Origin: Phytohabitans rumicis
Lineage (GTDB): Bacteria; Actinomycetota; Actinomycetes; Mycobacteriales; Micromonosporaceae
Direction: 5' to 3'
Length of the DNA stretch: 64,000 nucleotides
NCBI RefSeq assembly: GCF_011764445.1
Contig: NZ_BLPG01000001.1
Span: 2,852,001-2,916,000, forward strand
Made by a program: the position numbers and the translations under genes. The notes under the pieces were generated by a model, which had not been told where the DNA came from, made no database searches, and worked only from the letters and a program-made list of their open reading frames with translations. Below are positions 11,016 to 58,979 of this stretch, piece by piece; the first letter of the stretch is position 1, and every line of letters begins with the position of its first letter.

Positions 11016-11385
11016 CCCGACGTACCAGAAGGGCATGGCCGTGCGCCGCGAGGTGCTCGGCGACGCGCACGTCGACCGCGCCATCGCCAACACCACCGAG
11101 CTGACCGCGCCGTTCCAGGACTTCATCACCCGGTACGCCTGGGGCGCGGTGTGGGGGCGCGACGAGCTCGACCGGCGTACCCGCAGCTGCATCACGCTCG
11201 CGGTGCTGGCCGCCCTTCGGTGTGAGGACGAGCTGGCCATGCATGTGCGGGCGGCCCGCCGAAACGGCCTGAGTCCTGCCGAGATCGGCGAGGTGCTGTT
11301 GCACACGGCCGTCTACGCTGGTGTGCCGGCGGCGAACAGTGCCCTGGCGGTGGCGCAGCGGGTGCTCGCGGAGGAGAGTCCATGA
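11008..11385 (+). CDS. pcaC: 4-carboxymuconolactone decarboxylase
   Basis: 125-aa all-helical decarboxylase of the CMD/AhpD-like superfamily, of normal length. It removes CO2 from carboxymuconolactone to form the enol-lactone used by PcaD. Family features are RRTRSCITLAVLAAL and EDELAMHVRAARRNGLSPAE with the conserved Glu and His. Its start lies 8 bp inside pcaD, and its stop overlaps the pcaR ATG. Confidence 0.92.
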   Translation: MADPTYQKGMAVRREVLGDAHVDRAIANTTELTAPFQDFITRYAWGAVWGRDELDRRTRSCITLAVLAALRCEDELAMHVRAARRNGLSPAEIGEVLLHTAVYAGVPAANSALAVAQRVLAEESP

Positions 11386-12182
11386 CTGACGTGGGGCGCG
11401 AGGCCCACTTCGTACAGTCGCTGGAACGCGGCCTCGCCGTCATCCGCGCCTTCGATGCCCACCACCCCGAGCTGACGCTCAGCGAGGTGGCCCGGATCTG
11501 CGACCTCACCCGGGCCGCCGCCCGGCGCTTCCTGCTCACGCTCACCGACCTCGGCTACGTACGCACCGACGGGCGCCTGTTCAGCCTGACGCCGCGGGTG
11601 CTGGAGCTGGGCTACGCGTTCCTGTCCAGCCTGTCGCTGCCGGACGTGGCCGAGCCGCACCTGGAACGGCTGGTCGCGCAGGTGCACGAGTCGTCCTCGG
11701 TCTGCGTGCTCGACGGCGACGACGTGGTGTACGTCGCCCGCGTGCCCACCTCGCGGATCATGACGGTGGCCATCAACGTCGGCACCCGCTTCCCCGCGTA
11801 CGCGACGTCGATGGGGCGGGTCCTGCTGGCCGGGATGGCCGACGAGGACCTGGCGGCGTACCTCGACCGGGTGAAACTGACCCGGCTGACCGCGCGCACA
11901 GTCAGCAACGTCACCGCGCTGCGCACCGAGCTACGCAAGGTACGCGCCCAGGGGTACGCGATCGTGGACCAGGAGCTCGAAGAGGGGCTGCGGTCGGTGG
12001 CCGCCCCGATCCGCGACCGCACCGGCGCGGTCGTGGGCGCCGCCAACGTCTCCGTGCACGCGAGCCGCCACTCGGTCGAGTCGATCCGCCGCGAGCTGCT
12101 GCCGCTGCTGATGGCCACGGTGGCGAAGATCGATGCCGACCTGCGGATCGCCAGCCCGCAGCGCGCCGCCCGCCGAGCGTGA
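11382..12182 (+). CDS. pcaR: IclR-family regulator of the pca genes
   Basis: 266-aa IclR-family transcription factor (PcaR/PcaU/PobR group). The N-terminal winged helix-turn-helix is SEVARICDLTRAAARRFLLT (~residues 30-50), and the C-terminal effector domain contains YATSMGRVLLAG and GYAIVDQELEEGLRSVAAPI. It is the last gene of the pca operon (ATGA overlap with pcaC), so it is made with the enzymes. It probably binds the two three-half-site operators at 5970 and 6055 in response to protocatechuate or beta-ketoadipate. Its last codons (AARRA-stop) fall within the left 33-bp direct repeat of the adjoining island. Confidence 0.9.
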   Translation: MTDVGREAHFVQSLERGLAVIRAFDAHHPELTLSEVARICDLTRAAARRFLLTLTDLGYVRTDGRLFSLTPRVLELGYAFLSSLSLPDVAEPHLERLVAQVHESSSVCVLDGDDVVYVARVPTSRIMTVAINVGTRFPAYATSMGRVLLAGMADEDLAAYLDRVKLTRLTARTVSNVTALRTELRKVRAQGYAIVDQELEEGLRSVAAPIRDRTGAVVGAANVSVHASRHSVESIRRELLPLLMATVAKIDADLRIASPQRAARRA

Positions 12183-12198
12183 ACCTAAGTAAGCGCTC
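12166..12198. repeat. 33-bp direct repeat, left copy (attL-like)
   Basis: Perfectly repeated at 16744-16776 (starts CCGCCCGCCGAGCG, ends AAGTAAGCGCTC). This copy covers the last codons and stop of pcaR. Placement at a gene's 3' end, with low-GC DNA between the copies, is what site-specific integration leaves behind. Confidence 0.75.
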
Positions 12199-12210
12199 GG
12201 TGTCTTAGGT
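12183..12210. promoter_or_regulatory. inverted repeat after pcaR, possible terminator or att arm site
   Basis: ACCTAAG (12183-12189) pairs with CTTAGGT (12204-12210) across 14 bases. It lies between the convergent ends of pcaR and the IMPase-like gene and straddles the edge of the direct repeat. It could end transcription from both sides or belong to the recombination site. The arms are only 7 bp, so this is weak. Confidence 0.3.
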
Positions 12211-12212
12211 CG

Positions 12213-13049
12213 CTAGGCGAGCAGGGTCAACAACTCCTGGTGCAGGGACCGGTTGGCTGCCGCCACCACCGTCTGCCGTCGTACCTCGGCGTTGGCAAGG
12301 CCGCCCACAATCATCTGGAAGTCGATGTCGGCCCCCTCACCGTCCGTCACAACCCCACCAGCTCGCCGTACCAACTCATAGGCAAGCGCCTCATATGACG
12401 GTTGACCAATCGTCGAATCGACGAAGCCGTCGATCTCGCCAACCGCCAGCCGCACGGCCACAATTGCCCCATCAATCGTTGCTACCTGCCCAGCTCTTCT
12501 GAACAGCCGCATAGGGGTCTCCGCTCGTCGCTTCTGCTTGAGGAGGGAGATGACAAGAAACGCATCATCGACGCTACTTGCGGACGAGCGCCGCGCCGGC
12601 CCAGTGGCACCCTCGAAGCCGAGGTGAGTCACACTTGTCGGTGTCTGCTGGTCAGCCCAGACCACGCGCGGGATCTGAAGATCCGCGATCGCGCCCGCAA
12701 CGAAGACACCGGCCAACGTGTATTCATATACCGCGACCGCGGACTCCCTGACACCTCGGAAGGTGAGCGAGGTATTGCAGTAGGGGTCGCAGATCAGAAA
12801 ACGTGGTTCGCTTCCCAGCCTGACCAGACCGCTCTCCTCGGAGTAGACCAAGCCCGCGTACCCTGCCGACTTCAGAGTGCCAAAGAGCACGTCCTCCGCC
12901 ACCCTGTCGATCTCATGTGCCAGGTGCCCGCCGCCCTTGTCCAGGACAACCGCGCCAAGAGAAGGCAGGCTGCGCACGTCCACCAGCAATGGGCGCACCG
13001 ATTCGGCTATCTTTTCTGCGATATCGAACACGAGGCTGGTCAACGCCAT
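12213..13049 (-). CDS. inositol-monophosphatase-like protein with divergent metal motif
   Basis: 278 aa, last gene of the island operon. The fold-level pattern of the IMPase/FBPase/CysQ superfamily is recognisable: KGGGHLAHEIDRVAEDVLFG, then YSEESG (metal-binding Glu region), then ICDPYCNTSLTFRGV where the family has DPIDGTxNF, and late VGEIDGFVDSTIGQPSYEALAYELVRRAGGVVTD. The second metal motif has lost its usual Asp-Gly, so activity is uncertain. It could be a divergent sugar phosphatase or a binding protein. Starts 15 bp after the kinase stop; an ATG in another frame at 13054 has the RBS GGAGGATC, which also serves 13049. Confidence 0.6.
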   Translation of the reverse strand: MALTSLVFDIAEKIAESVRPLLVDVRSLPSLGAVVLDKGGGHLAHEIDRVAEDVLFGTLKSAGYAGLVYSEESGLVRLGSEPRFLICDPYCNTSLTFRGVRESAVAVYEYTLAGVFVAGAIADLQIPRVVWADQQTPTSVTHLGFEGATGPARRSSASSVDDAFLVISLLKQKRRAETPMRLFRRAGQVATIDGAIVAVRLAVGEIDGFVDSTIGQPSYEALAYELVRRAGGVVTDGEGADIDFQMIVGGLANAEVRRQTVVAAANRSLHQELLTLLA

Positions 13050-13064
13050 GCCATGATCCTCCCG

Positions 13065-14074
13065 TTAAGGCTTCTCACTACGCAGACGATTCACATCGTT
13101 GACGTCCGGGAGTTGGTCCGTCGATATGGTCAACGCCGCGACGGCACACGCGAACTCGACGCTGTCGTACAGATCCAGCTCAAGAGTGTTCGCAGTCACA
13201 AATCCCGCGTTGAAGCTGTCGCCAGCGCCGACTGTATTCCGGACCCGGACGTCGTAGGCATTCATGGTTACCTGGCGATCAGGTGTAAAAGCGAATGCTC
13301 CTGCGGACCCGTCCTTGACGACGACAACCTGTTCTTCGACCATCAGCCCCGGCTGGAATGCCCTTACCGCTGCTTCGACATCATCCGCGCCCCACAATGC
13401 CAAGAACTCGCCGCGACTTGGCAGATAGATGTCTGAGAACCTAGCCAAGGACCTCATACTGGCCAGGCTGCCGCTTGATACATCTCCAGGGACCCGCCCA
13501 TGGTCCAGGATAACCTTTACCCCCGCGCCTGCAGCGGCTTCACCACCGAAAGTAGATCCTCGAGAAGGCCCGGGAGCTTAAAGCCGCCACCAAGGTAGAC
13601 GTAGGAAATCTTGCTCTCGTGCTCTTCGACAATGCCTGCCAACTCCGCGCCGGTTAAGGCATCGCTTGCCGTGCCGGCCACGGCCATGACAGAGGCACCA
13701 CTGGGTGCCACGAAATTAATACCGACGTCAGTTACCGCCGACGTATCAACTTTTAGAGCAAGTCCGACATCGGCGTCTCGCAGCATGCCAGAAAGTAAAT
13801 CACCAAAGGCGTCGGTGCCGATCTTTCCGGCAAGGATGGTGGATAATCCCAGCCGTCGACCGAAACGGGCGAAGTTGACCGCCGAGCCTCCCGGGACGAC
13901 CTCGTAATCCCGACCAATCGTTTCAACCTCAATCGGGAGCCCGTCCTCGCACGGGAACGCAAGGCAATTCACATCCACATAGATGGGCCCGATACACAGC
14001 ACACCACTCACGGCCAGGACCTGCTCCCGCACGAAGGCATGCCGGCAGCGTACCACCGAACCGAACGCCCTCAA
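13065..14074 (-). CDS. PfkB-family sugar kinase, apparent 1-bp frameshift
   Basis: Carbohydrate kinase of the PfkB/ribokinase family. The N-terminal half (SGVLCIGPIYVDVN, then VPGGSAVNFARFGRRLG, the first family motif) ends falsely at 13517. The C-terminal half has VKVILDHG, LPSRGEFLALW and the catalytic anion-hole motif NTVGAGDSFNAGF. One missing base near 13543-13547 separates them; adding it gives LLSVGEAAAGAGVKVILDHG. The outer start is TTG 14074, overlapping the GlmS stop (TTGA); GTG 14011 (VSGVLCIG) is a good alternative. Substrate unknown, but its place between GlmS and a phosphatase-like protein suggests a sugar or amino-sugar phosphate. Confidence 0.7.
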
Positions 14075-15912
14075 CGCACCGTGACGGATTTCGCGAGGTG
14101 CCGCGGGCGATCTATCTCGCGACCAAGATCAAGCGCACAGTAGTACGCGAACAGTTGACCAACAACGAGTTGGACGACGAGGTCAGTGACCTCCTCGTCA
14201 ACGTATGGCAGCGAAACGTACTCAGCGAAGTTCTTCCGATCCTCCGAATCAATCTCGCCTGGCCCAAACCCAATCACGGGCCCGCCTCGCGCAGCGATTT
14301 CGCTAACGCTGGCCAATGTCGCCATATGCATACCCGGGCTGGCCAGCCGAGAAGGAACCAAGGCAATGGTATGGAACTCAGGGTCAATGAGCGAAATTGT
14401 CCCATGCTTGAAGAAGCCGGCCGCCATCCCCTCCGCGTGCCGATAGGTGGCTTCCTTGAACTTGAGGGCTGACTCCATCGCAGCAGGGTACAGAAGACCA
14501 CGGCCGATGAAGAACCAGTTCCTCACCTGGCTGCGGCGTTGAGCGACCTCTCGGATCGCGGCGCTTGTATTGCCAACAACAGTCCGCAGCACGTCGGGCA
14601 AGTGAGCCAGTGACTCCAAGAGCGCCGAATATCGACCGGAGGAGAGCGTTCCGTCCCGTAGTCCAGCTTCCATGGCGAGTCTGGCCAGAATAACCGCCTG
14701 GCTGACTATCGACTTGGTGGAGAGCACGCTGATTTCCGGACCAGAGCGTTGTTGAAGGCGATATGCAGCGAGGCGCTCAAGCGTTGAGTTGGGCACGTTG
14801 CTGACCGATATCACAGTTCCGCCAGATCCAATGACCCAACGACACGCCTCAAGCGTATCGAAGGTCTCACCCGATTGAGATATCGCGACAACCGTGTCGG
14901 TCGGATCCACCTTGCAGAAGTTCTCCATCTCGTCCGAGACCAACGCCATCGCCGGGAGCCCGGACAGTCGGGTGATTAAAAATTGCCCGATCTGAGCCAG
15001 GTAGAAACCGCTGCCGGCGCCGATGAGGAGCAACGGTCTGGCCGGCGCCCGCGGCAAGGCGTTGCGCAGGCTCTCATCGGAGATTTGAAGTGCCGCCTTC
15101 GCGGCCGTCGGCGTCTCATGGATCTCTTTGATCATGAAGTGCTCAAAACTACCTCGGCCGGATCCTCTCACCGAGTCGATCACCGTTGTCTTCGCGCGCC
15201 TTGTCGGCACAGGCGAGCCGTCGGCGCCCACTCGAAAGACGTCCGCTCGGTCAGCCTGCAGTCGAGCTACGTCTCCGTCCTCTAAGAAGGTCATACCGTC
15301 AGTCTCAGGGTCCACCACTGCGACCGGGTCTGAGGCGAGAAGGGTCTGCCCATCATGCTTGCAGAGGACTAGTGGACTCTTGTGCTTTGCCGCATAGATC
15401 GCTCCGGGATCGGCCGAACAGAGAATGCCGAGCGCATACTCTCCGGTAATCCGGGCGCAGGTCCAGCATATGGCCTGGAGCAGCGTAGCACCTTTCTGCA
15501 TGTAATTGGCGATAAGATGCGCAGCGACCTCGCTATCCGTTTCTGATCGGAGGCAAACTCCGCCGGCTTCCAGTTCCCGTCTGATCTCCAAGTGATTGTG
15601 GATCACGCCGTTGTGGACGGTAGCAATCGTGCCGTCATACGAGAGATGCGGATGGGCGTTGACTCGGGAGGGCACGCCGTGCGTCGCCCACCGCGTATGC
15701 CCGATCGCTACCTGCATCGCGGACAGCGAACTAAATTGGCCTCGCTGCACGGCTTCGGTGACCGATCCGACGTCCTTCTCGACAACAATGGAGCCGGCAA
15801 CCAGTCCCGCAATACCGAATGAGTCGTAGCCGCGGTACTCGATCATCGTAAGCCGATGAACGATGGACTGCACAATGTCTCGCCGGGAGGCGACCCCTAC
15901 AATCCCACACAT
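14071..15912 (-). CDS. glmS: glutamine--fructose-6-phosphate aminotransferase (isomerising), extra copy
   Basis: 613 aa, full length for GlmS, which converts fructose-6-phosphate and glutamine to glucosamine-6-phosphate. The N-terminal glutaminase is intact: Cys2 nucleophile in MCGIVG, then HTRWATHG and SETDSEVAAHLI. The two SIS isomerase domains start near residue 270 (ISQSGETFDTLEA, FIGRGLLYPAAMESALKFKE, HAEGMAAGFFKHG). It ends in the family C-terminus RPRHLAKSVTV. ATG at 15912 has GGGGAG upstream. An island-borne copy is probably a dedicated amino-sugar enzyme and not the housekeeping one, which would normally be elsewhere. Substrate change cannot be excluded. Confidence 0.88.
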   Translation of the reverse strand: MCGIVGVASRRDIVQSIVHRLTMIEYRGYDSFGIAGLVAGSIVVEKDVGSVTEAVQRGQFSSLSAMQVAIGHTRWATHGVPSRVNAHPHLSYDGTIATVHNGVIHNHLEIRRELEAGGVCLRSETDSEVAAHLIANYMQKGATLLQAICWTCARITGEYALGILCSADPGAIYAAKHKSPLVLCKHDGQTLLASDPVAVVDPETDGMTFLEDGDVARLQADRADVFRVGADGSPVPTRRAKTTVIDSVRGSGRGSFEHFMIKEIHETPTAAKAALQISDESLRNALPRAPARPLLLIGAGSGFYLAQIGQFLITRLSGLPAMALVSDEMENFCKVDPTDTVVAISQSGETFDTLEACRWVIGSGGTVISVSNVPNSTLERLAAYRLQQRSGPEISVLSTKSIVSQAVILARLAMEAGLRDGTLSSGRYSALLESLAHLPDVLRTVVGNTSAAIREVAQRRSQVRNWFFIGRGLLYPAAMESALKFKEATYRHAEGMAAGFFKHGTISLIDPEFHTIALVPSRLASPGMHMATLASVSEIAARGGPVIGFGPGEIDSEDRKNFAEYVSLPYVDEEVTDLVVQLVVGQLFAYYCALDLGREIDRPRHLAKSVTVR

Positions 15913-15935
15913 GTCGCTCCCCAGCGTCCAGAAGC

Positions 15936-16526
15936 CTAGCTTCTTTTCGAGAACTTGCCATCGACCCGGAAGGCGAGGACTGCGTCGTCGCTATCAAACA
16001 GGTCGGGGTTCACACGCACTTGGGGCTTCGCTGGAAAGCCAATCGTAATTGGGTATCGTCGCCCGCCCGCCCGCTTCCGCCAGGTCCGCACGAGAGTCCC
16101 CGACAGGAGCCGCACCGGCAGGAGGAACTGTTTGCCACGAATTGTGATCTGGTGGTTGCAGTAAGGCGCTATCTGGTAGATCGTGCGCAGCACAACATCG
16201 CCATACAGATTAAGGAAGGCCACTTTTCCGACCTGGCGAGATTGAATCAGTACGGCCACGAGGTCGAGATGTGCACACCAAGCGTTGACCGCTGCGGTCT
16301 CCTCCTCGGACCAGGACTGGAAGCTGTCTCGCTCCAGGTTGTAAATAACTGTTCTGTGTTTCCGAAACTCTGGCGTCTCGAACTGCTGCGCAATCCGGAG
16401 GAATGCGTCCGTTGACCCCCACCGCCGCTGTAAACGAACGGCGAGAGCTGCCGCTATGGCCGAGCTGAAACCCGCTAAAGCCGCCGCGACGGCAACAGCG
16501 ACCGTCGCGAAGTCGTTGGCTGACAC
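15936..16526 (-). CDS. membrane-anchored protein, DUF4760-like
   Basis: About 196 aa from GTG 16526 (VSANDFATVAVA), which has an AGAGG-type RBS; the frame stays open upstream to 16610 without support. One N-terminal membrane segment (~residues 5-30, rich in Ala and Val) is followed by a soluble helical region (FLRIAQQFETPEFRKHRTVI, then AVNAWCAHLDLVAVLIQS) that resembles the DUF4760 pattern, and a basic C-terminus. First gene of the island operon, 23 bp before glmS. Function unknown; the resemblance is by eye only. Confidence 0.55.
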   Translation of the reverse strand: MSANDFATVAVAVAAALAGFSSAIAAALAVRLQRRWGSTDAFLRIAQQFETPEFRKHRTVIYNLERDSFQSWSEEETAAVNAWCAHLDLVAVLIQSRQVGKVAFLNLYGDVVLRTIYQIAPYCNHQITIRGKQFLLPVRLLSGTLVRTWRKRAGGRRYPITIGFPAKPQVRVNPDLFDSDDAVLAFRVDGKFSKRS

Positions 16527-16743
16527 ACCGGCCTCTATCCGTTGAAATCGATGCGGTCCCGTGTACGGCTCGGTCTTGGCGCATCGCCCCCAGCCCAGCT
16601 GGAGCGGCACAAGTATCGCTGTTTCAATCGACGAAGTTAATGGGAGGAGTAGACATGTCGTGGATCCGACTGTGCCCTTGTGCCGTGCGCACGGGCCTGC
16701 GTCGCCTTCAAGATCGCGTACCGCCCCCGGCAGGAGGTCGCGC

Positions 16744-16776
16744 CCGCCCGCCGAGCGTGAACCTAAGTAAGCGCTC
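16744..16776. repeat. 33-bp direct repeat, right copy (attR-like)
   Basis: Identical to 12166-12198. The 440-bp gap 16527-16966 also holds the presumed promoter of the island operon and the hairpin at 16922-16957. A short open stretch from ATG 16654 (after GGGAGGAG) has no recognisable homology, and I see no gene in this gap. Confidence 0.75.
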
Positions 16777-16921
16777 AGCCGTACCCGCTACATGAATACG
16801 CCACCTGGCGGAAGTACGTACGAGCCCGCGCCCGCAGGATAGGAGTCATGCAGAGCCCGAAGATTCCCGGCCGCTGTACTGCCAAAGGGCTGCGGCGGCA
16901 GGCGACAGGACTCCGCGCTGA

Positions 16922-16957
16922 TCAGGGAGTAACTCCGGTCGCGTAGTTACTCCCTGA
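16922..16957. terminator. perfect hairpin after the DrrAB-type operon
   Basis: Arms TCAGGGAGTAACT (16922-16934) and AGTTACTCCCTGA (16945-16957), a 13-bp perfect stem with a 10-base loop, 9 bp beyond the permease stop. No U-tract is obvious, as is usual in this GC-rich group. Member of the TGATCA hairpin family. Confidence 0.6.
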
Positions 16958-16966
16958 CCTTAGCTT

Positions 16967-17770
16967 CTACTTGGCTAGGCGGCTCAGCAGAGCGCTCGCG
17001 ACGGCGATCGCGAGCGCGGCGGACCCGACCAGCACCCCGTAGTCCAGCCACAGCCGGGCCGGCGCGCCGATCAGCAGGCCGCGCAGCGCCTCCACCTGGT
17101 AGCTGAGCGGGTTGACGTGGTTGATCACCTGGAGCCAGCCCGGCATCAGCGACACCGGGTAGAGCGCGTTGGACGCGAAGAAGAGCGGCATCATGATCGC
17201 CTGGCCGATGCCCATCATCCGGTCCCGCGACAGCACCAGGCCGGCGATGATGATCGACAGGCAGCAGAAGAACGCCGAGCCGAGCAGCACGATCACGACC
17301 ACGCCGGCGAGCTTCAGCGGATTCCAGGTCAGCCCCACGCCGAGGAGCGTGGACAGCACGAGCACGACCACCACCTGGCTCAGCGCCCGCATGCCCGCCG
17401 CGAACGCCTTACCCGTGACCAGCGCGGCCCGCGGCGTCGGCGTCACCATCAGCTTGGCCAGGACCCCCGCGTCCCGATCCCAGATGATCTGGATGCCGTA
17501 GAAGATCGAGATGAAAAGCGCCGACTGGGCGATGACGCCCGGGGTCAGATAGTCCAGGTACGGCACGTCCCCGGTCGGGATCGCCCGGATCTTGGTGAAC
17601 GTCACGCCGAACACCAGCAGCCACAGTGCCGGCTGCACCGCCCGGAAGAGCAGTTCGGTCCGGTCACGCCGCATCTTCTGCAGCTCGACCAGGCACATGG
17701 CGGCGACCCGCCGGGCCACCAATCCCAGGTCAACCGAGGCGCGAGGCAGTGCGTCGAGTCTGGCGGACAT
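16967..17770 (-). CDS. ABC-2 type exporter permease (DrrB-like)
   Basis: 267-aa ABC-2 permease with six predicted membrane segments. The soluble N-terminus (VELQKMRRDRTELLFRAVQP) leads into the first segment (ALWLLVFGVTF). The ABC-2 pattern DRDAGVLAKLMVTPTPR follows, and the late loop MPGWLQVINHVNPLSYQVEALRG is typical. It overlaps the ATPase gene by 41 bp. Likely exports a drug or lipid; the substrate is not predictable. Third gene of the marR operon. Confidence 0.87.
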   Translation of the reverse strand: MSARLDALPRASVDLGLVARRVAAMCLVELQKMRRDRTELLFRAVQPALWLLVFGVTFTKIRAIPTGDVPYLDYLTPGVIAQSALFISIFYGIQIIWDRDAGVLAKLMVTPTPRAALVTGKAFAAGMRALSQVVVVLVLSTLLGVGLTWNPLKLAGVVVIVLLGSAFFCCLSIIIAGLVLSRDRMMGIGQAIMMPLFFASNALYPVSLMPGWLQVINHVNPLSYQVEALRGLLIGAPARLWLDYGVLVGSAALAIAVASALLSRLAK

Positions 17771-18999: not shown

Positions 19000-19047
19000 C
19001 CCCCTCCCCTGCGCCCCTTCCCCGTCGATCAAGCCCATCCCTCGCCC

Positions 19048-19130
19048 GTCGATCAAGGGCATATGGCCGTGCTTTGATCTCCGATCCACGACCTTTTGCC
19101 CTTGATCGACGCGGAAATCCTTGATCGACG
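19048..19130 (+). repeat. 82-bp GATCAAGGGC hairpin element, copy 1
   Basis: A 24-bp arm (19048-19071), 15-base loop CTTTGATCTCCGATC, complementary arm (19087-19110) with a few mismatches, then a tail ending CCTTGATCGACG. Three more copies lie at 19300, 30355 and 52130. Sits in the gene-free stretch 18968-19424, which otherwise holds only the MarR operator, this repeat pair and GC-rich filler. Confidence 0.75.
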
Positions 19131-19299: not shown

Positions 19300-19380
19300 C
19301 GATCAAGGACTTCGACGTCGATCAAGGGCAAACGGTCGTGGTTTGGAGATCAAAGCACGACCATATGCCCTTGATCGACG
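19300..19380 (-). repeat. 82-bp GATCAAGGGC hairpin element, copy 2 (inverted)
   Basis: Same element in the opposite direction: tail CGATCAAGGACTTCGAC first, then arm 19317-19340, loop, and arm 19356-19379 (2 mismatches between arms). Confidence 0.75.
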
Positions 19381-51835: not shown

Positions 51836-52129
51836 GGTGGGGTGCTCCTCGTTTGTCCCTGGTTGTCACGCCCGACCGGTCGGTCAGGCGTCCTGGCGCC
51901 TGATCGCCGGCCAGAGTGGACCCGATCAAGATCGGGACCAGGGGACCGTCGCCCCATTGGCAGAGCCGTGGGGAGGGCGCGCGAGGTCGACCACCGAAAG
52001 GCGGTCGCCAGTTGCCCAGTGTACGCCCCTCCTCCCCCGCCCTCCGCCTCCCCCGCCCTCCGCCTCCCCCTCACCCGCGCCGCCCGCGCTCCCCCGCCCG
52101 CGCCGCCCGCGCTCCCCGCGCCTCTCCTC

Positions 52130-52212
52130 GTCGATCAAGGGCAAACGGTCGTGCTTTGATCTCCGATCCACGACCGTTTGCCCTTGATCGACGCGAAAGT
52201 CCTTGATCGACG
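52130..52212 (+). repeat. 82-bp GATCAAGGGC hairpin element, copy 4 (perfect arms)
   Basis: 24-bp arms 52130-52153 and 52169-52192 are perfectly complementary; loop CTTTGATCTCCGATC; tail GCGAAAGTCCTTGATCGACG. It sits in the 450-bp gap 51836-52285, which also contains the rpsB promoter region and a C-rich low-complexity stretch (52020-52125) with no gene. Confidence 0.8.
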
Positions 52213-58037: not shown

Positions 58038-58979
58038 GTGAAGCGCAAGAGCGTCAGCATCCGGGCGATCCACGAAGGGCTGCCGGAGCCGATGCGCGAC
58101 GCGGTCGACGACTTCGCGCGCCACCTCGCCAGCGTGGAAAACCGCTCGGTCCACACCGTCCGGGCATACGTCGGGGATGTGGTGTCGCTGCTCGACCACG
58201 CGGCTCTCATGGGCTGCGGAGCGCCCGGTGACCTCGACATCGCCGTGTTGCGGAGCTGGCTGGCGAAGCTGCGCACGCTCGGCGCGGCCCGTACGTCGTT
58301 GGCGCGCCGGGCGGCCTCGGCACGCACGTTCAGCGCGTGGGCGCATCGGGGCGAGTTGCTCGCGGTCGACGTGGGTGCTCAGCTCGCCAGCCCTAAGGCG
58401 CACCGGGACCTGCCCACCGTGTTGCGCGCCGAGCAGGCCGAGGCGCTGGTGCAGGCACCCGGCGACGAGGCTTCCCCGGTGCTGCTGCGCGACCGGGTCG
58501 TGCTGGAGTTGCTCTACGCCACCGGCATCCGGGTCAGCGAGCTGTGCGGCCTGGACGTGGCCGACGTCGACCGCGGGCGGCGGGTGGTCCGGGTGTTCGG
58601 CAAGGGCGGCAAGGAGCGATCCGTCCCTTATGGACTTCCGGCGGAGGAGGCGCTCGACGGCTGGCTGCGGCTGGGCCGGGGCGCGCTCACGGGCCCGGAC
58701 AGCGGCGACGCGCTGCTGCTGGGCGCGCGCGGCGGCCGGCTCCAGGCGACGATCGCGCGCCGGGTGGTGAGCGGGTACGCCCGCGCGGCCGGCCTGCCCC
58801 ACGTCAGCCCGCACGGGCTGCGCCACTCCGCCGCCACCCACCTGCTCGAAGGCGGTGCCGACCTGCGCGCGGTGCAGGAGTTGCTGGGCCACGCGAGCCT
58901 GTCCTCCACGCAGATCTACACGCACGTCTCCGTGGAGCGTCTCCGGGCCGCGTACCGCCAGGCACACCCCCGCGCGTAG
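58038..58979 (+). CDS. xerC: XerC-like tyrosine recombinase
   Basis: 313 aa from GTG 58038. N-terminal SAM-like core-binding domain (FARHLASVENRSVHTVRAYV) and a catalytic domain with all key residues: Arg in GIRVSELCGL, Lys in GKGGKERSVP, HGLRH, the His in LLGHASLSSTQ and the nucleophile Tyr in TQIYTHV. Size, completeness and position after dprA fit the housekeeping chromosome-dimer resolvase rather than a phage integrase. It is not near the 33-bp repeat island. Confidence 0.9.
   Translation: MKRKSVSIRAIHEGLPEPMRDAVDDFARHLASVENRSVHTVRAYVGDVVSLLDHAALMGCGAPGDLDIAVLRSWLAKLRTLGAARTSLARRAASARTFSAWAHRGELLAVDVGAQLASPKAHRDLPTVLRAEQAEALVQAPGDEASPVLLRDRVVLELLYATGIRVSELCGLDVADVDRGRRVVRVFGKGGKERSVPYGLPAEEALDGWLRLGRGALTGPDSGDALLLGARGGRLQATIARRVVSGYARAAGLPHVSPHGLRHSAATHLLEGGADLRAVQELLGHASLSSTQIYTHVSVERLRAAYRQAHPRA

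Follow-up and report, generated by a model that had tools for sequence, protein, structure and literature searches.

Downstream of the regulatory gene pcaR in Phytohabitans rumicis, a compact operon of foreign composition is enclosed between two exact copies of a 33-bp direct repeat. The feature lies in a window of 64,000 nucleotides, which is the whole stretch of DNA that was analyzed, and comparison with relatives shows that this islet is a real acquired insertion. It is probably an ordinary genomic islet without a mobility gene of its own. As to the manner of its arrival, the reading favored here, albeit tentatively, is that a recombinase, acting in trans or since lost, integrated the islet at an att-like site. 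According to this reading, a horizontally acquired, integrase-less operon would have been inserted once in the lineage, at a point flanked by the pcaR end and a transporter-gene remnant, and the 33-bp repeats would represent the attL and attR of site-specific (tyrosine-type) integration. The recombinase would be encoded elsewhere or have been lost; thus, the islet would be movable in trans at most. Should the repeats be active as att sites, this species would have a landing site at the pcaR end, and the small islet could help to find the recombinase of that site. If they are instead a duplication left by break repair, the locus provides a clean natural case of an actinomycete capturing a foreign operon through end joining. 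On both readings, the islet constitutes a well-bounded case and not a new kind of element. The features discussed below are collected in Table 1.

Table 1. Features of the islet, its borders, and related loci (positions refer to the window unless a locus is named).
Feature	Position	Strand	Remarks
pcaR (PcaR/PcaU/PobR-type IclR regulator), intact	11382..12182	+	TIGR02431, 341.8 bits (cut-off 284.75); stop within left repeat copy
Left 33-bp direct-repeat copy	12166..12198		Carries final codons and stop of pcaR
Foldable region where the pcaR and IMPase-like genes converge	12166..12222		z -2.68 (+), -3.49 (-), for a stretch picked after the inverted repeat had been noticed
Imperfect dyad, 11-6-11 spacing	12173..12200		Pairing at 8 of 11 positions, all of the outer 7 included; possible recombinase core site
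Islet interior	12199..16743		4,545 bp, GC 0.60
Inositol-monophosphatase (IMPase)-like protein	12213..13049	-	PF00459, 27.7 bits (cut-off 27)
PfkB-type sugar kinase	13065..14074	-	Two reading frames, 13517-14074 and 13065-13457
GlmS paralog (glutamine--fructose-6-phosphate transaminase, isomerizing)	14071..15912	-	TIGR01135, 530.6 bits (cut-off 418.05)
First operon gene, 224 aa, weakly DUF4760-like	15936..16610	-	PF15956, E 0.0026, 18.4 bits (cut-off 25)
Right margin ahead of first gene	16611..16743		Presumed from its position to be the promoter region of the operon
Right 33-bp direct-repeat copy	16744..16776
Landmark TGAATACGCCACCTGGCGGA, MFS gene tail remnant	16793..16812	+	16 bases beyond the right repeat
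8xMP / deoxyribosyltransferase-like gene pair	L040 3717-4812 (G002); L042 5011-6053 (G003)		Absent from the window and from G005
IMPase-like relatives with DPYCNT	L039 10939-11772 (G033); L051 7038-7871 (Micromonospora maritima)

Composition and Extent of the Islet

The interior has a mean GC of 0.60 versus 0.712 for the rest of the window, where other stretches of 4,545 bp range from 0.687 to 0.758. In 300-bp windows, values of about 0.56–0.63 were obtained wholly inside the islet, compared with about 0.63–0.79 outside. The low interior GC to which a sequence-only reading of the window had drawn attention is therefore real, whereas the size of the contrast had been overstated. The difference is marked at third codon positions, with a GC3 of 0.67–0.73 in the cargo genes against 0.93–0.95 in pcaR and the two downstream ABC genes, and the shift in composition lies near both repeat copies. 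From first start to last stop, a single minus-strand operon makes up 96.8% of the interior, with 14 bp after the last stop codon and 133 bp ahead of the first gene. A whole operon filling the interior in this way is less expected of a random fragment, which argues for integration at an att-like site, and the anatomy fits the earlier suggestion of a pared-down cargo cassette. When the 80-bp inner ends were compared, no matching terminal inverted repeats were found (matches of at most 6 bp).

The pcaR Locus in Related Genomes

All six genomes of the genus, including that of P. rumicis, carry pcaR at 85% identity or above. In four of the five same-genus relatives (G001, G002, G003, and G005), the 3' end of pcaR is free of the cargo; in the fifth (G004), the contig stops about 150 bases past pcaR, so the insertion point is unreadable. 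The landmark sequence TGAATACGCCACCTGGCGGA occurs once in each of five of the six genomes, downstream of pcaR (at most 2 mismatches). Since relatives lack the cargo and the landmark follows pcaR in five of the six genomes, the insertion is real. Together with the foreign composition, the cargo-free ends bear out the earlier proposal of an integrated insertion.

The distance from the end of the pcaR match to the landmark is about 41 bases in G005, 81 in G003, 409 in G002, 2,064 in G001, and 4,613 here. In G001, the gap is filled by a TetR-type gene and an MFS gene (L043 6095-8215), and the landmark is the tail of this MFS gene. Of the MFS gene tail, G002 retains a clear remnant of 75 residues and G003 one of 17, whereas those in P. 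rumicis (12 residues, E 0.007) and G005 (11 residues, E 0.052) are weak. As the relatives other than G001 keep only such remnants, the locus seems to decay repeatedly, and the comparison of landmark and remnants therefore indicates that the islet entered a short interval separating pcaR from a decayed gene. Past the right repeat, the sequence aligns with those of G002, G003, and G005, while G001 was misaligned on account of the longer interval from its pcaR to the landmark.

The flux past pcaR, with TetR and MFS genes in G001 and MFS tail remnants elsewhere, would also suit vertical inheritance of the operon followed by loss in the relatives, with repeats unrelated to the operon. This explanation is nevertheless disfavored and appears exceedingly remote, given the strongly foreign composition, the lack of the cargo in all four readable same-genus loci, and the presence of exact repeats at both composition borders.

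Two further observations concern the DNA beyond the landmark. In two relatives, it holds a gene pair encoding an 8xMP-family membrane protein and a protein weakly resembling nucleoside 2-deoxyribosyltransferases (below cut-off), a pairing that looks like a conserved two-gene unit. In P. rumicis, a very stable hairpin at 16910-16970 (z -5.35), just beyond the end of the ABC permease gene, is a likely terminator.

The Direct Repeats

The sequence-only reading had described a perfect 33-bp direct repeat whose left copy restores the end of pcaR, and it likened the two copies to att sites. Each of these observations was reproduced, and the att interpretation remains plausible. The copies are identical (12166-12198 versus 16744-16776), and the likeness reaches about 37 of 38 bp if one gap is allowed in a run of C; the left copy supplies the last codons and stop of a pcaR that is intact as judged by TIGR02431. 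At up to 3 mismatches, the 20-mer core GTGAACCTAAGTAAGCGCTC has only two sites in the 10.7-Mb genome, both of which are the repeat copies. Among 30 copies of the window generated by a first-order Markov model, the longest exact direct repeat ranged from 16 to 20 bp; thus, the 33-bp repeat is beyond chance. It ranks third in the real window, after a 36-bp repeat with copies 126 bp apart and a 35-bp repeat with copies 15 bp apart. A separate palindromic interspersed repeat of about 65 bp, with ends CGTCGATCAAGGGC and GCCCTTGATCGACG, is present in three copies (19047-19111, 19316-19380, and 52129-52193) and is possibly a REP-like family of this genome.

Several features of the repeat argue for integration at an att-like site. 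It is exact and restricted to two copies in the genome, it encloses DNA of foreign GC and GC3 that four relatives lack at their pcaR ends, and it contains the end and stop of pcaR, just as att sites at gene ends hold the end of the target gene. In addition, an 11-6-11 dyad spans most of the repeat, with 7 of 11 positions pairing at the right copy. Perfect 7-bp inverted repeats with a spacing of 6–20 bp are frequent in the window (226 in all, or 0.21 per 60 bp); the dyad therefore lends the att reading little weight. The foldable region at the left border may be a two-way terminator, and folding is weaker around the right repeat (z -1.60). A small plus-strand frame (16654-16776) with, by eye, a good ribosome-binding site enters the right repeat; an overlapping frame (16561-16770) gave no Pfam match.

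Other features of the repeat weigh against site-specific integration. Whereas att sites in genes usually fall in conserved sequence, the 33-bp sequence is unconserved in the genus, the longest exact word in common with the five relatives' loci being 10–12 bp. Of the earlier expectation that relatives would show an empty pcaR end with one repeat copy, the empty end was therefore found in four of five, and the repeat was not, with at most 12 bp in common. The repeat core does not recur elsewhere in the genome, and viral contigs contain no exact match to an 18-bp core. A search of plasmids with the left repeat region (E <= 1) returned short pieces in 83 records; five of these pieces are at 99% identity or more, and no record covers 80% of the query.

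Because the 33-bp site is unconserved in the genus, a target duplication is a serious rival. Foreign DNA may have been joined into a staggered break, with fill-in of the overhangs duplicating about 33–38 bp of the target; the repeats would then be a one-off target duplication and the islet immobile. Such capture by end joining is somewhat unlikely and nonetheless accounts for several results at once: the unconserved site, the failure to find a recombinase, the lack of matching terminal inverted repeats, the detection of the cargo set in this genome only, and the presence of a Ku gene in all six genomes of the genus. Less easily accommodated are the close fit of the islet's ends to the operon and the stagger itself, as 33 nt is long for end-joining repair. 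In Streptomyces ambofaciens, an actinomycete that likewise has Ku, break repair has yielded single inserts of 30 bp to 18.8 kb, accompanied by fill-in synthesis and, like the islet, without mobility genes or terminal inverted repeats (PMC5869714). Unlike the islet, the inserts covered in the available part of that report are of endogenous origin, and neither a long target duplication nor, specifically, a 33-bp direct duplication is described there.

The Search for a Recombinase

Integration at an att-like site calls attention to recombinase genes. In the host genome, the tyrosine recombinase family accounts for 22 matches, one of which falls below the cut-off, and the large serine recombinase family for 8. 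Inside the islet, neither a recombinase nor a transposase was detected by Pfam and NCBIfam among the operon genes or by Pfam among 8 further open reading frames, in agreement with the earlier remark that no integrase lies within. Thus, both the transposase and the terminal inverted repeats of a transposon are lacking. The only recombinase in the window is a tyrosine recombinase at 58038-58979 in an ordinary neighborhood; it is presumably XerC-like, and the adjoining gene looks like dprA. No tRNA was found in the window, which excludes a tRNA as the integration target.

The search was extended to other pcaR loci by tblastn with 45 translated fragments of host recombinase loci, on both strands where open. 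Such queries detect recombinases resembling those of the host and miss unlike ones. They recover the window's own recombinase (58419-58937), a partly circular control, as one query derives from it. A pcaR match at E <= 1e-100 is present in 96 of 200 genomes of the family, and the flanks examined comprised 20 of these in addition to the own genus. None of the 20 flanks, drawn from six other genera of the family and comprising 3.9 to 10.5 kb each from the 3' side of pcaR (partly pcaR itself), yielded a recombinase with these queries, and none was accepted near pcaR in the four same-genus loci. A weak match in G002, located about 7.5 kb past pcaR (34% across 32 residues, E 6e-5), was judged to be chance since the 382-aa frame around it does not look like a recombinase gene. 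In G002, G003, and G005, Pfam likewise found no recombinase among 8 frames of the interval from pcaR to the ABC genes. The failure to find a recombinase in the islet, in the four same-genus loci, and in the 20 family flanks counts against the att reading.

Comparison With Known Systems

A precedent for att sites without a resident recombinase is offered by cis-mobilizable elements (CIMEs), which, according to the available part of a published account, have lost their integration and transfer genes while keeping attL and attR (PMC5704250). By its anatomy, the islet appears CIME-like, with direct repeats at a gene end, cargo retained, and no integration or transfer genes found. In contrast to a CIME, no ICE or IME remnant was seen in it, and its interior is filled by the operon; no integrase-bearing relative was found at the site, the site is unconserved, and the att activity is putative. 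Islands in dusA, trmE, and yicC resemble the islet in their insertion at a protein-coding gene. As far as the accessible portions of their descriptions go, those islands have integrases or mobilizing plasmids and widely shared target genes, whereas the islet has no integrase that could be found and occupies unconserved sequence. Among the literature matches listed, no title names pcaR as an integration site.

With integron gene cassettes, the islet shares compact cargo and a foldable sequence 3' of the last gene; it differs in having four genes, a probable promoter region of its own, and no recombinase. The attC core is RYYYAAC/GTTRRRY. An integron-like origin was rejected, as no such core was seen by eye in the islet, and a CRISPR-like origin was set aside for want of any supporting motif.

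The Cargo and Its Relatives

The operon begins with the DUF4760-like gene, whose product has, by eye, a hydrophobic N-terminal stretch. The GlmS paralog aligns with 4amv over its full length, with matches to the N-terminal MCGIVG and the C-terminal LAKSVTV, which we take to be catalytic motifs. The change of frame in the PfkB-type gene is either a true mutation or a sequencing error, and the kinase appears broken. In all three aligned IMPase-like proteins, DPYCNT replaces the metal-binding motif DPxDGT, which reads DPLDGT in two solved IMPase sequences. Judging from these families, the cargo probably makes or alters an amino-sugar phosphate: GlmS would yield glucosamine-6-phosphate as a substrate for the kinase and the IMPase-like protein. 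The more elaborate proposal of a minimal one-operon cassette that moves via its 33-bp sites, relies on a recombinase wholly in trans, and encodes an amino-sugar pathway that includes a redesigned IMPase-like enzyme is highly improbable. Two structure models, of poor quality at mean pLDDT values of 41.4 and 50.5, were set aside. A defense system was considered and rejected, as the sole matches from PADLOC were weak (E 0.0024 and 0.061) and were taken as chance; the two matches to RNA families were both far under cut-offs.

As a full set, the cargo occurs only in this genome among those searched. A GlmS paralog at E <= 1e-155 was found in one of 396 genomes of the phylum (its own), and the DUF4760-like protein was matched at E <= 1e-5 in two of 394 genomes of the class, namely its own and G740 at 23% identity. 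Viral contigs held no relative of the cargo. In plasmids, protein searches with the IMPase-like protein, the N-terminal part of PfkB, and the DUF4760-like protein gave nothing, while GlmS matched 658 records, all below 60% identity and at best 39.2% among the matches listed. On the 14-kb Thiothrix plasmid with the best protein match, GlmS adjoins a class III aminotransferase, with no PfkB or IMPase annotated. At the DNA level, short GlmS pieces were found in 11 plasmid records, one at 85% over 4% of the query. In phages, GlmS occurs in 40 records, all below 60% identity, and no IMPase-like protein was found. The possibility that the right margin was copied from other host DNA was also rejected: across 61 genomes, the matches were its own locus, the left repeat, and 46 bp in G764 (judged chance).

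These searches bear on a third route of entry, in which a circular molecule carrying 33–38 bp of the pcaR end was inserted by a single crossover through ordinary homologous recombination. A single crossover yields direct repeats and an intact gene, both of which are observed. Yet 33–38 bp is very short for RecA-type recombination, the circle must bear this strain's own unconserved sequence, and no near relative of the cargo turned up in the plasmid collection or viral contigs, all of which makes this route improbable. Integration at an att-like site remains the favored reading.

Of the cargo, the IMPase-like gene alone gave relatives of useful identity outside this locus, namely in two loci of the Micromonospora type. 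At E <= 1e-20, the protein was matched in two of 397 genomes of the order (its own and G033). As a single-protein query, it found no relative among 142 pattern stretches of genome contigs, and a two-sequence alignment of IMPase-like proteins found one locus among 73 pattern stretches, in Micromonospora maritima (L051). This locus shares 93% identity over 6.4 kb with that of G033 (L039). GlmS, PfkB, and DUF4760-like genes are absent from both L039 and L051 (17.9 kb in L051). In L039, genes nearby the IMPase-like gene include one for a HAD-type phosphatase and one resembling glucosamine-6-phosphate isomerase genes; the occurrence of amino-sugar phosphate enzymes in both settings of this gene suggests what its substrate may be.
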